A stretch of DNA of 5,424 nt, from assembly GCA_903938955.1 (NCBI GenBank), contig CAJAFJ010000151.1:1-5424 (forward strand). The letters run 5' to 3'. Source of the DNA: an uncultured beta proteobacterium (GTDB taxonomy: Bacteria > Pseudomonadota > Gammaproteobacteria > Burkholderiales > Burkholderiaceae). Numbering within the stretch: the first letter of the stretch is position 1; every line of letters starts with the position of its first letter. Below are positions 1,870 to 4,325 of the stretch, in pieces. A program made the translations under genes and the position numbers. Under the pieces are notes generated by a model. It was not told the origin of the DNA. It saw nothing but the letters and a program-made list of their open reading frames with translations, and did no database searches.

Positions 1870-1947
1870 ACCCCGCTGCCACCCGTATCCCTCGGCATGT
1901 GGGTGAGTGCTGGGGGTCTCCATCTCGTTTTATTGGCGTTCTTGGCT

Positions 1948-2607
1948 ATGAAGTTTGAAGCAATCCTGTTTGACTGCGATGGCGTGCTGGTGGACAGCGA
2001 ACCGATCGTGAATGGCGTGTTACGCGACATGCTGGAGGCGCGTGGCTGGGCCATGAGCGCGCAGGAATGTATGCGTTATTTTGTTGGCAAGGCCGTGCGC
2101 GACGAGCGCGTGGCCATCGAGGCACGCACCGGCCTGCCGCTGACCGACGAATGGATGCAGCTGTTTTATGAACGGCGCAACCTGGAGCTGGACGCCCGGC
2201 TGCAGATCATGGCGGGCGCGCAGGCCGCCGTGGCCGCTGCGCACGCCCACACGCAGCAGCGCATCGCCTGCGCCTCGGGGGCGGACCGTTTCAAGGTCGA
2301 AATGCAGTTGACTAAGGTGGGGCTGATGGATTTTTTTGCGGGCAACATTTTCAGCGGGCACGAGATGCCGCGCTCCAAGCCCGCGCCCGACGTCTATCTG
2401 GCCGCCGCCCAGCACCTGAACACGCCGGGGCACCAGTGCCTGGTGATTGAGGACACAACTGTCGGCGTCACAGCGGGCGTGGCGGCTGGCGCCACCGTCT
2501 GGGCCTATTGCCCGCAAGCCGAGCGCGGTCCTGATTTGCTGCAGGCCGGTGCCAGCCTGCTGTTTGGCCACATGGGTGAGTTGCCTCAGTTGCTGGCGAC
2601 GGCCTGA
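1948..2607 (+). CDS. HAD-superfamily hydrolase, subfamily IA (YieH / beta-phosphoglucomutase-like)
   Basis: This 219-residue protein shows all four HAD motifs. Motif I is FDCDGVLVDSE, with nucleophile D9 and acid/base D11. Motif II is S110 in ACASG, motif III is K144 in RSKPAPD, and motif IV is E168-D169 in LVIEDTTVGVTAG. An alpha-helical cap (about 16-85) follows motif I, as in class C1 caps. The pattern FSGHEMPRSKPAPDVYLAAA and the C-terminal FGHMGELPQLL resemble E. coli YieH, described as a 6-phosphogluconate phosphatase, so a small-molecule phosphatase is the best guess; a phosphomutase cannot be excluded. The frame is open upstream to an ATG at 1897, but the extra 17 residues are hydrophobic and lie outside the family, where the DxD motif normally sits 6-10 residues from the start. 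The ATG at 1948 is therefore preferred, although its ribosome binding site is weak. Confidence 0.92.
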   Translation: MKFEAILFDCDGVLVDSEPIVNGVLRDMLEARGWAMSAQECMRYFVGKAVRDERVAIEARTGLPLTDEWMQLFYERRNLELDARLQIMAGAQAAVAAAHAHTQQRIACASGADRFKVEMQLTKVGLMDFFAGNIFSGHEMPRSKPAPDVYLAAAQHLNTPGHQCLVIEDTTVGVTAGVAAGATVWAYCPQAERGPDLLQAGASLLFGHMGELPQLLATA

Positions 2608-2624
2608 AAGGGCGCTTCAGAACG

Positions 2625-2721
2625 CTGCCTGTTTCGCAGGCACCGGGCTGCAAGCCGCGCCGAATAAGGCTTTGCGCAGCTTGTTCTGGTAGTCATGCAC
2701 AAAGTTATCCACATAAATTGT
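2625..2721 (+). repeat. Intergenic repeat, copy A
   Basis: First of three diverged direct copies. It opens with a perfect 6-bp hairpin, TGCCTG (2626-2631), loop TTTCG, CAGGCA (2637-2642). It continues with CTGCAAGCCGCG (2648-2659) and ATAAGGCT (2664-2671), and ends with CACAAAGTTATCCACA (2698-2713). The first CTGCCT lies 80 nt before the DnaA box. The last 16-mer is identical in copy C. Confidence 0.7.
2705..2713 (+). promoter_or_regulatory. DnaA box 1 (perfect TTATCCACA)
   Basis: The nonamer TTATCCACA matches the high-affinity DnaA box consensus TTATNCACA at every position. It lies at the end of repeat copy A, upstream of the main AT-rich tract. Confidence 0.65.
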
Positions 2722-2767
2722 GTACGGACGACAGGGGCTGCCACCCTCGTCAGACGGCAGAGACAAC

Positions 2768-2801
2768 TATTTATTTATTAAATTTTTCGAGGTATTTTTT
2801 T
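2768..2801. other. AT-rich tract (candidate DNA-unwinding element)
   Basis: Thirty of 34 bases are A or T, in an otherwise GC-rich genome. The tract includes TATTTATTTATTAAATTTTT and then a run of seven T. It lies between DnaA boxes 1 and 2. A melting role is inferred from composition and position. Low-GC intergenic filler is the alternative. Confidence 0.4.
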
Positions 2802-2945
2802 GCCTCTTGGGGCTGGTTTTTTGTATTTTTGATGTAAGGTTTTGACGCGTTTGGTGTGAATTTTGAGACTTGTTAGACCTGCCTATTTGCTAGGCAATGC
2901 GTTGCAACCCGCGCCAGATAAGGCTTCAGCGGGTTTTCCCTAGGC

Positions 2946-2954
2946 TGATCCACA
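2946..2954 (+). promoter_or_regulatory. Degenerate DnaA box (TGATCCACA)
   Basis: The nonamer TGATCCACA has one mismatch to TTATCCACA. It starts 12 nt before DnaA box 2 on the same strand, making a close tandem pair. It could be a weaker DnaA site or a chance match. Confidence 0.35.
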
Positions 2955-2957
2955 CAG

Positions 2958-2966
2958 TTATCCACA
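2958..2966 (+). promoter_or_regulatory. DnaA box 2 (perfect TTATCCACA)
   Basis: Perfect match to the DnaA box consensus, in the same orientation as boxes 1 and 3, at the end of repeat copy B and just before the second AT-rich tract. Confidence 0.65.
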
Positions 2967-2976
2967 GAAGTTGTGG

Positions 2977-3000
2977 AATCAATTTATTTTTGACAAATTT
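2977..3000. other. Second AT-rich tract
   Basis: Twenty-one of 24 bases are A or T. It directly follows DnaA box 2 and precedes repeat copy C. It is a candidate melting region, judged on composition alone. Confidence 0.3.
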
Positions 3001-3026
3001 CAGCTGAAACCGGCAGTCAAATGGCA

Positions 3027-3125
3027 CTGCCTGTTTTTAAAGCACCGTGCTGCAAGCCGCGTCGGCCGTGGGTTTGCAGGGCTTGTCCGGGGGCTGGTAC
3101 ACAAAGTTATCCACAAAATTTGGGG
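3027..3125 (+). repeat. Intergenic repeat, copy C
   Basis: Third copy in the same orientation. It begins CTGCCTGTTTTT (3027-3038), and here the right hairpin arm has decayed to AAAGCA, so the stem is broken. CTGCAAGCCGCG (3050-3061) matches copy A exactly, and CACAAAGTTATCCACA (3100-3115) is identical to copy A. The CTGCCT start again lies 80 nt before the DnaA box. The ATAAGGCT core of A and B is missing. Confidence 0.65.
3107..3115 (+). promoter_or_regulatory. DnaA box 3 (perfect TTATCCACA)
   Basis: Third perfect DnaA box on the same strand, about 55 nt before the 3' end of the convergent AraC-family gene. Confidence 0.65.
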
Positions 3126-3170
3126 AGCGAGTGTTTGTTGGGTTTGTGCTAGTGCGCCAAGCCCGAGAAT

Positions 3171-4175
3171 TCACGTTGATGGCATGCCCAGGCGCCTGAA
3201 TTCCGCGGGTGATGTGCCTGTCCAGTGCTTGAAGGCGCGCATAAAGCTTTTCTCATTTTGAAAGCCTGCCGCTTGCGCCACCTGCTTGATGGGGCGCTCT
3301 GTGCGCAGCAACAGGTCCAGCGCCCGGGTTTTACGCACATCGTCCTTCAGCGCTTGCAGCGAGGCGCCTTCGTCCTGCAGTTGTCGGTGCAGCGTGCGTG
3401 GCGACATATGGAGCAGCGCGGCCAGGGCTTCGGCGTTATGCGTTTGTGCCGGATGGGCGTTCAGTGTTTGGCGCACGCGCTGCACCAGCAGGCGGTCGCG
3501 ACGGTAGGGTCGCACGGTCAGGGGCAGGGCGTTTTGCAGCATATGTTGCAAGGCCGCCTCGTCGCGCCGCACGGGCAGGGCGAGGTAGCGGGCATCAAAG
3601 CAAAGGCTGGCCGGTGCGCTGTCAAACGCGGTGGGGCCTGAAAACAGCACGTCATAGACCTGCGCGTGGGCCGGGGCGGGATACGGAAACTGCGCACTGT
3701 GCAGCGGAATGCGCGAATCGATCAGCCAGCAGGCCACGCCCAGCAGATTGCGCAGCACCGACACCAGACAAAACTCACGCAGCGCGCCGAGCTCACGCTG
3801 CTCGGTGATAGACAGCGTGGCGGTGTCGCCGGTGACCTTCAGCCGGAGCGTGATGTCATCAGTTATCAGTCCGTGGTGGCGACACCAGCGCTGCAAGGCC
3901 ACGCCCAGATGCGGCGCGCTAATAGAGGCGCGCGCCAGCATGCCGTAGCTGCCCCAAGGCAGGCGGCGGCTGAACCAGCCCAGGCCTTCATCGTCCAGCT
4001 CCAGCATCGCCGCACCGGACAGGCGCTCAAACTGCAAGGCGGTGACGCACGCGCTGGGGTTGGTCAAAGAAGCTGGCGCAATTTGTGCCAATGCCAAGGC
4101 CTGTGCCGGGCTTTTTTCATAGCTCGCGTAGGCTTGCACGATAGCGTTGACAAAGGCGATAGGCGTCAACGCCAC
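3171..4175 (-). CDS. AraC-family transcriptional regulator with arabinose-binding-like N-terminal domain
   Basis: A DNA-binding activator or repressor, 334 residues from the GTG at 4175. The N-terminal sensor region (TPIAFVNAIVQAYASYEKSPAQAL, then LPWGSYGMLARASISAPHLGVALQRW) matches the style of the Arabinose_bd (PF12625) regulators. The C-terminus has both AraC helix-turn-helices: about 248-270 (AEALAALLHMSPRTLHRQLQ) and about 296-320 (IKQVAQAAGFQNEKSFMRAF), closed by GTSPAEFRR. The frame stays open to a GTG at 4325 (384 residues), but the extra 50 residues are Thr/Pro/Leu-rich and outside the family. That start would also leave only 47 nt to the divergent carboxylase gene. A TTG at 4169, seven nt after AGGG, is another possible start. 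The gene is divergent from a leucine-catabolism gene, so it may respond to a leucine/isovalerate intermediate; the ligand is unknown. Confidence 0.9.
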   Translation of the reverse strand: MALTPIAFVNAIVQAYASYEKSPAQALALAQIAPASLTNPSACVTALQFERLSGAAMLELDDEGLGWFSRRLPWGSYGMLARASISAPHLGVALQRWCRHHGLITDDITLRLKVTGDTATLSITEQRELGALREFCLVSVLRNLLGVACWLIDSRIPLHSAQFPYPAPAHAQVYDVLFSGPTAFDSAPASLCFDARYLALPVRRDEAALQHMLQNALPLTVRPYRRDRLLVQRVRQTLNAHPAQTHNAEALAALLHMSPRTLHRQLQDEGASLQALKDDVRKTRALDLLLRTERPIKQVAQAAGFQNEKSFMRAFKHWTGTSPAEFRRLGMPST

Positions 4176-4245
4176 GCCCTGCGTCAAGGGGGTAACCGGC
4201 GGAGTGGCCGTGTGGGATGTTGGGCGGGTCGTCAAAGTGAGCGTG

Positions 4246-4274
4246 AGTATGCCGATAAGTGGCGCGATTTGCAA
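4246..4274 (-). promoter_or_regulatory. Candidate promoter of the AraC-family gene
   Basis: Read on the minus strand, TTGCAA (4274-4269, 4 of 6) and CATACT (4251-4246, 4 of 6) are separated by 17 nt. Transcription would start near 4239, about 65 nt before the GTG at 4175 and downstream of the GTG at 4325. This agrees with the shorter protein. Both hexamers are imperfect. Confidence 0.28.
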
Positions 4275-4299
4275 CCTGCTTGGCCCCCGTAAACCCGTA

Positions 4300-4325
4300 G
4301 TGTCTTTTATGCTCAGCAGGGACAC
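4300..4325. repeat. Small inverted repeat in the divergent control region
   Basis: GTGTC (4300-4304) and GACAC (4321-4325) are inverted around 16 nt and overlap the only -10-like hexamer facing the carboxylase gene. It could be a regulator site. The arms are only 5 nt, so chance is a real alternative. Confidence 0.2.

Follow-up and report, generated by a model that had tools for sequence, protein, structure and literature searches.

The gap between the convergent genes for a HAD-family hydrolase and an AraC-type regulator in an uncultured beta proteobacterium holds three diverged copies of a repeat unit, each with a perfect DnaA box. The array is real and its geometry is conserved where it is present; its function is what we infer. 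We favour, at about an even chance, a reading in which DnaA binds the array as an accessory locus apart from the origin, and is there titrated or changed in its nucleotide state.

A DnaA-box array between convergent genes

The window, which is the whole stretch of 5,424 nt analysed here, encodes an AAA/DUF4143 protein, a rhodanese, a HAD hydrolase, an AraC-type regulator on the opposite strand and a carboxyltransferase (open reading frame list and Pfam). No replication or initiator gene is found among these genes by Pfam, as an earlier note on this DNA had remarked. The same note placed the repeats between convergent genes, and the coordinates agree: the HAD gene stops at 2607 (plus strand), the AraC gene stops at 3171 (minus strand), and the array occupies the 563-nt gap between them. 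The features are as follows.

1897..2607, likely start 1948, plus strand: HAD-family hydrolase ORF, whose 3' end borders the array (Pfam PF00702/PF13419)
2625..2722, plus strand: unit A; highest identity to unit A of L012 (79%), which is not its nearest row on the unit tree
2693..2701, plus strand: weak upstream box TCATGCACA, 12 nt before box A (from the sequence; columns 72 and 74-77, T-N-CACA, are conserved in 40 units)
2705..2713, plus strand: DnaA box A, perfect TTATCCACA (consensus match)
2723..2877, no strand: AT-rich spacer A-B, 155 nt (155-157 nt in nine of nine arrays)
2878..2975, plus strand: unit B; closest to unit B of L012 (85%)
2946..2954, plus strand: weak box TGATCCACA, 12 nt before box B (match at no more than one mismatch)
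2958..2966, plus strand: DnaA box B, perfect TTATCCACA, followed by inverted TTGTGG (TGTG of columns 95-98 conserved)
2976..3026, no strand: spacer B-C, 51 nt (40-42 nt in seven of nine arrays, 51-52 nt in two)
3027..3124, plus strand: unit C, with inverted half-box TGGG and not TGTG; closest to unit C of L012 (84%)
3095..3103, plus strand: weak box TGGTACACA, 12 nt before box C (from the sequence)
3107..3115, plus strand: DnaA box C, perfect TTATCCACA (consensus match)
3171..4325, minus strand: AraC-type regulator ORF, convergent to the HAD ORF (Pfam PF12625, PF12833)

The three perfect boxes (2705-2713, 2958-2966 and 3107-3115) all lie on the plus strand, within a span of 411 nt. The units of about 98 nt begin at 2625, 2878 and 3027, and the boxes follow the CTGCCT starts at 2625, 2879 and 3027 by 80, 79 and 80 nt, so that both the three copies and the offsets described from the letters alone are confirmed. 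A repeat search of the window aligns A with C at 74% over 96 nt, and finds B only in two shorter families. Four box matches at no more than one mismatch occur in the window, a count reached in none of 200 dinucleotide shuffles, and 20,000 first-order Markov resamples of the 563-nt gap contain a mean of 0.0023 perfect boxes and never more than one. The three boxes are therefore not a product of chance, and the improbability claimed for them stands under both kinds of control. In 200-nt intervals, G+C falls to 0.405 (2701-2900) and 0.430 (2801-3000) within the gap, and is about 0.63-0.71 (intervals 2001 to 2600) and 0.64-0.67 (3301 to 4100) on its flanks.

Little else is recognizable in the gap. 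A simple consensus scan of 2550-3250 gives no sigma-70-like promoter, the one terminator-like hairpin (3012-3031) is no more than shuffles give, and Rfam has no family at the array, with one sub-threshold match to a microRNA family elsewhere in the window. The exact repeat pattern matches nothing in genome contigs or viral contigs, because the unit is too diverged for such a search.

Structure of the repeat unit

A search with the AraC protein gave mostly metagenome records among the 120 listed of 6018 matches, with named Polaromonas and Rhodoferax proteins between them. The sample used for the unit consists of 80 loci, the best of 168 confirmed, which were retrieved with the AraC protein and without reference to any box. 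These loci contain 28 perfect boxes in 1.27 Mb. Of the boxes, 27 are found downstream of AraC and on the strand opposite to it, usually within 1 kb and in some cases 2.5-8.8 kb away; the remaining one is far upstream (L048). An HMM grown from the three copies in the window gives 44 matches at E<=1e-3 in the 80 loci and the window together; in the 80 loci alone, at the same threshold, there are 41 units, all in the same orientation. The model finds no match in the same loci reversed, a control that speaks for specificity only, as these loci were also used in training. It also finds no unit in 400 kb sampled from the chromosome of one relative (G012), and from this the copy number of the unit appears to be low.

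In an alignment of 40 units, the strongest columns are TGCC...GGCA (2-5, 15-18) and A..CC...GG (28, 31-32, 44-45), together with T-N-CACA (72, 74-77), TTRTCCACA (81-89) and TGTG (95-98). The DnaA consensus positions are among the best conserved, with eight of nine columns at 1.66 bits or more. The boxes are not always perfect, since column 83 is G in 13 of the 40 units. The weak box begins 12 nt ahead of the strong box.

The inverted repeats of the unit pair in 86% of cells, with covariation no higher than in column shuffles, and RNAalifold gives only four pairs in the unit alignment. As covariation remains at the shuffle level and so few pairs are predicted, DNA dyads fit these inverted repeats better than RNA. 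A structured RNA was accordingly rejected as a candidate: it has no excess of compensatory changes over shuffles, only those four pairs and no Rfam family at the array.

Occurrence and geometry of the array in relatives

Among 76 AraC loci with 600 nt or more of sequence downstream, units occur less than 1 kb from the AraC match in 19, with perfect boxes in 13. The HAD protein, matched in 55 of the 89 genomes of the genus, is followed by units in eight of its 30 best-scoring loci, four of the 30 having less than 600 nt of DNA downstream. In a further 25 genomes with HAD, coordinates place a unit beside it in seven (G007, G011, G033, G038, G039, G042 and G047). Units are absent from the HAD-AraC gap in most relatives, and the array is thus not generally required; it is accessory. 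The alignment ends of HAD and AraC are 175-553 nt apart in seven HAD loci with units. In the 17 unit-less loci with a usable AraC match they are no more than 66 nt apart in 13 and 186-895 nt apart in four. In G038, HAD and AraC are separated, and there are units beside each (L169, L170).

Nine arrays have three boxes: those of the window, L002, L005, L009, L012, L027, L174, L176 and L177. The distance from box A to box B is 253-255 nt in all nine, which by sequence form only a few related groups and are not nine independent cases. From box B to box C the distance is 138-140 nt in seven arrays and 149-150 nt in two, the window belonging to the latter class. All three units are strong by HMM in five arrays (the window, L002, L012, L176 and L177). 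The third unit of L005 is weak, and TTACCCACA is found among the boxes of this array; L009, L027 and L174 have kept the third box at the usual distance, within DNA in which the HMM no longer recognizes a unit. For these faded units the evidence is balanced: the retained box favours selection on box and spacing, and to the same degree the lost unit counts against the unit. Two-unit arrays have A-B distances of 256, 256, 257 and 288 nt (L010, L042, L046 and L036, in that order), and L170 and L019 have degenerate boxes with spacings of 255-256 and 180-181 nt. From these numbers, the B-C spacing classes would differ by about one and about four helical turns.

The spacing is kept while the spacer itself diverges. 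The A-B spacer of the window is only 32-41% identical to those of the other eight arrays, and the mean pairwise identity over all nine is 44% (shuffled spacers, 22%). Among the nine arrays, identity averages 71% for units A and B and 58% for unit C, with the A and B units of the window at 62-85%. Short blocks resembling TTTCTGGTATG and GACTTATACC recur in the A-B spacer of most of the nine arrays and are incomplete in the window. An IHF consensus at no more than one mismatch is found in four of 13 arrays (the window included), in none of them rarer than in 14% of Markov resamples; an IHF site is not conserved. It had been proposed that boxes lacking conservation in syntenic regions of relatives would speak against a role for the locus. 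Where the array exists, its boxes are mostly kept, if not always perfect, at fixed spacing, yet most relatives have no unit at all between HAD and AraC (19 of 76 and eight of 30 loci with units, as above).

Related units upstream of priA and xseA and at other sites

Units are widespread beyond the HAD-AraC gap. At E<=0.01 a model built from sequence only, R1, finds them in 10 of 10 genomes. At E<=1e-6 it finds them in 79 of the 89 genomes from the genus to which G002 belongs, and at E<=1e-5 in 22 of 24 genomes for which named loci were the entry point. The positive genera include Limnohabitans, Acidovorax, Hydrogenophaga, Curvibacter and Diaphorobacter; at E<=1e-5, R1 has no match in the genomes of L075 (Limnohabitans) and L060 (Paracidovorax). 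Many of the matches, as labelled with Pfam and tblastn, lie between hemE and priA or in the region upstream of xseA towards lpxK. The earlier alternative of a dispersed repeat family carrying DnaA boxes is borne out to this extent, with units in many relatives and many places by the R1 searches and tblastn labels.

Counts at the two genes were anchored on the proteins to avoid choosing loci by box. PriA is matched in 59 of 60 family genomes, of which 55 were counted (the 30 best-scoring and 25 more that were fetched; four were left out), and a perfect TTATCCACA lies upstream of priA in 48 of the 55 (26 of 30 and 22 of 25). For XseA, matched in 55 of the 60, the corresponding number is 36 of the 45 counted, with ten left out (28 of 30 and eight of 15). 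The reversed pattern gives none in the priA and xseA loci counted. The hexamer (A/C)CAAAG precedes 80 of the 98 perfect boxes in 100 priA and xseA loci. At the level of the order, 10 of 20 genomes fetched from 60 PriA matches, mostly the better-scoring ones, have a perfect box upstream of priA. In L313, from the order set, three perfect boxes lie in a stretch ahead of priA that is very rich in A+T (63%).

Of the 48 family genomes with a main priA box (among loci L196-L225 and L256-L280), 28 have a further TTNTNCACA box, usually TTATGCACA, 184-191 nt ahead of it; the reversed control gives 0, and other 8-nt bins from 30 to 333 hold three at most. In the order set a second box is found 162-188 nt before the priA box in nine of 10. 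The second box of the family genomes lies 3' of the hemE stop in the two sequences viewed (L196 and L261). The xseA site (L226-L255, L281-L295) is composite and sits on the other strand, in most cases some 195-250 nt ahead of xseA; a relaxed TTNTNCACA box precedes the perfect box by exactly 12 nt in 19 of 36 cases. Several perfect boxes precede priA in Acidovorax CF316 and in a Curvibacter MAG (four in L185, three in L187).

In G012 there are 15 perfect boxes in total: two in the HAD-AraC array, one at priA, one at xseA and 11 elsewhere. Of these, the boxes at priA and xseA and array box B have (A/C)CAAAG before them; the third array box and the 11 elsewhere lack it, one of the 11 (L303) lying in faint unit-like sequence. 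Perfect boxes are not always enriched genome-wide, the counts of perfect to reversed boxes being 15 to 18 in G012, 24 to 27 in G038, 30 to 10 in G005 and 26 to 11 in G004.

Arrays also occur at lineage-specific places (L167, L169, L171-L173 and L184), and units have multiplied locally, with six in L184, eight in L169 and pairs in L167 and L171-L173. Box spacings at such sites differ from those at HAD-AraC, for example 297-298 nt in L167, L172 and L173, 134 and 228 nt in L186, and 137-229 nt in L184. The six tandem units of L184 (3071-4014, Acidovorax sp. CF316) fill 0.96 kb and have one perfect box, the rest being one-mismatch boxes, each followed by TCATCCAC. In Polaromonas sp. OV174 (L095:2400-6481), seven unit-like repeats with inverted repeats lie between ankyrin, GDSL-lipase and unknown genes in a cassette-like layout; integron attC sites would be a candidate reading of these clustered units.

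A tree of 163 distinct units has 13 changes of the four locus labels, against a mean of 85 for shuffled labels, with none of 200 shuffles as low, and five changes when priA, xseA and HAD-AraC are taken alone. Units B and C of the window are nearest to units B and C of L012, and other rows are nearer to its unit A by path. This tree rests on 97 alignment columns, no more than 12 of its 160 inner branches are starred, and its clustering is raised by near-copies; it therefore shows clustering by locus and not a history. Such clustering would argue against free mobility of the units.

Relation to the replication origin

An origin, or a remnant of a mobile replicon, had been suggested for the array from its layout, and neither suggestion is supported. 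In G012, dnaA is at the start of the chromosome record (C2:409) and the array at 4.281 Mb of 4.712 Mb, 431 kb away. This distance is not constant among relatives, being 643 kb in G038 and about 2.15 Mb in G011. Most segments of G012 from 0.1 to 2.26 Mb have positive GC skew (two are slightly negative) and most between 2.5 and 4.68 Mb have negative skew (one is slightly positive); the sign of the skew changes between 4.68 and 0.1 Mb, next to dnaA, a placement that is coarse because the skew was taken from 20 segments of 20 kb. On either side of the array the skew is negative, with -0.050 at 4.18 Mb and a value near zero, -0.005, at 4.42 Mb.

The dnaA regions of ten relatives (L101-L110, L110 being partial) contain no unit above 8.2 bits. 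Upstream of dnaA, one perfect box was seen in the Rhodoferax-type relatives viewed (L101, L103 and L106), and two or three perfect boxes with TAGTAG-like repeats in Polaromonas (L107 and L109). The single box and lack of a unit in the rpmH-dnaA region of the three Rhodoferax-type loci raised the idea that the array could be the true oriC of Rhodoferax, and this was rejected on the sampled skew of G012.

The array is thus probably not the replication origin, and very unlikely to be one. The wider proposal of an origin, a second origin or a mobile-replicon remnant can draw on the three boxes and the AT-rich DNA between A and B, and we regard it as highly improbable: skew in G012 turns positive only past dnaA, the window matches no plasmid or phage DNA and its genes include no initiator.

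A possible role in the control of DnaA

DnaA probably binds at the array, to judge from the perfect consensus boxes and from the usual box-recognition region in the DnaA of relatives; the sequence GRDHTTVLHA, which we take to be the region that reads the box, is present in nine of nine relatives examined. The formation of a DnaA oligomer at the array, and an effect of it on initiation, would be further steps. Each unit carries one strong DnaA box, a weak box exactly 12 nt before it and, in the majority of units, an inverted TGTG half-box just after it, and its two conserved upstream inverted repeats could be the site of a second protein. The pairing of weak and strong boxes at 12 nt and the fixed distances between boxes would suit cooperative assembly, with the three boxes holding DnaA molecules in a defined arrangement. 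It may be that the array takes up free DnaA, or shifts its ATP/ADP state, possibly with a partner on the dyads, and so tunes initiation at a distant oriC. An effect on DnaA itself is favoured over one on transcription because a promoter is unlikely between two 3' ends; the convergent position argues against a promoter role. Titration, which in its datA-like form was one of the roles first suggested, or another regulatory role would be the most likely reading on the conserved boxes, orientation and spacing.

A bolder reading covers all of the sites. In Comamonadaceae, and partly in the wider order, an independently evolved cis-acting system of DnaA control may exist, in which a composite unit of about 100 nt, with two dyads for a partner protein and a weak-strong-inverted triplet of DnaA boxes, has a fixed place ahead of priA and xseA and has multiplied into arrays with helical phasing, the present one among them. 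We hold this only tentatively, as somewhat doubtful. If true, composite units would set the availability or nucleotide state of DnaA and tie initiation to genes of replication restart and repair.

A serious rival, though in our judgement an unlikely one, is that the units are sites of DnaA-dependent transcription control, through which DnaA at priA and xseA would link the state of replication to the expression of restart and repair genes; the HAD-AraC array would then be a copy, perhaps with a local promoter or small RNA. The boxes upstream of priA and xseA and their constant orientation fit this, as do the TTTCTGGTATG and GACTTATACC blocks that the A-B spacer keeps in most of nine arrays, if not fully in the window. 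It sits poorly with an array placed between two 3' ends, where the scan of 2550-3250 found no sigma-70-like promoter and where neither conserved RNA structure nor an Rfam match is seen, and tandem units and a second priA box at 184-191 nt exceed what a simple operator needs. Less likely again is a slowly spreading MITE- or REP-like intergenic repeat in which the DnaA box is incidental and which has no host function here. Units do occur in many unrelated intergenic places, with local multiplication and varied spacings, and the HAD-AraC locus has the look of an empty site where units are missing (alignment ends within 66 nt in 13 of 17 loci, against 175-553 nt in the seven with units). Units of such a repeat would hardly be expected to group by locus on the tree, to be as few as the empty 400 kb of one relative suggests, or to keep boxes and spacing at HAD-AraC while the spacer diverges and even while the third unit fades. 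That the 25-nt core is the site of another DNA-binding protein and merely contains TTATCCACA seems improbable: the core is longer than a DnaA box, carries (A/C)CAAAG before 80 of 98 perfect priA and xseA boxes and includes a CACA/TGTG dyad, but its most conserved columns include the DnaA consensus positions (eight of nine at 1.66 bits or more), and 19 of the 36 xseA sites that have a perfect box show the relaxed TTNTNCACA box at a distance of exactly 12 nt.

Comparison with known systems

The control of DnaA by chromosomal sites has been worked out mainly in E. coli and B. subtilis. The unit at priA, at xseA and, in certain lineages, in arrays would provide defined targets for the study of initiation control in these Betaproteobacteria. 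The HAD-AraC array, present in some and absent in other close relatives, offers a natural comparison, and its fixed spacing around a diverged spacer allows a physical model to be tested, with DnaA on one face of the helix and possibly looping. No earlier description of the unit appears in the literature on DnaA-box clusters, Betaproteobacterial intergenic repeats, DnaA regulons (Burkholderia, Ralstonia and Bordetella), DnaA boxes of Rhodoferax or at priA, xseA and hemE, or the distribution of datA and DARS2, as represented by titles and the beginnings of abstracts among the matches listed (the term datA also matched 'data', which yielded mostly noise).

REP- and MITE-type repeats are dispersed and intergenic and contain inverted repeats, and the units resemble them in all three respects. 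The units differ in being grouped by locus, in their fixed spacing at HAD-AraC, in being centred on a DnaA box and in their low copy number.

E. coli datA, like the array, is non-coding, lies outside oriC and contains several DnaA boxes. As a cluster of boxes outside oriC, which is what marks datA, the array has three perfect boxes in 411 nt, of predicted high affinity for DnaA, and in a relative it does not lie at the skew switch. By comparison, datA has five DnaA boxes and an IHF site required for its activity (PMC4585315), whereas the array has three boxes in repeats of about 98 nt and no conserved IHF site; it also differs in its HAD-AraC context and in being present in a minority of relatives. 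DARS1 and DARS2 of E. coli are likewise non-coding groups of DnaA boxes away from oriC with a conserved box arrangement. There are three boxes in DARS1 and six in DARS2 (PMC4585315), the latter with IHF and Fis sites (PMC4585315, PMC5295017). Because the IHF consensus is not conserved, we do not file the array as datA or DARS.

The DnaA-box clusters of B. subtilis are, like the array, intergenic and outside oriC. In that bacterium, removal of all six clusters leads to early initiation, according to a review which also says that no cluster of significant role has been identified there (PMC5295017). These clusters belong to a different phylum, but by analogy they would be the nearest functional precedent for the array, with an effect of the titration type.
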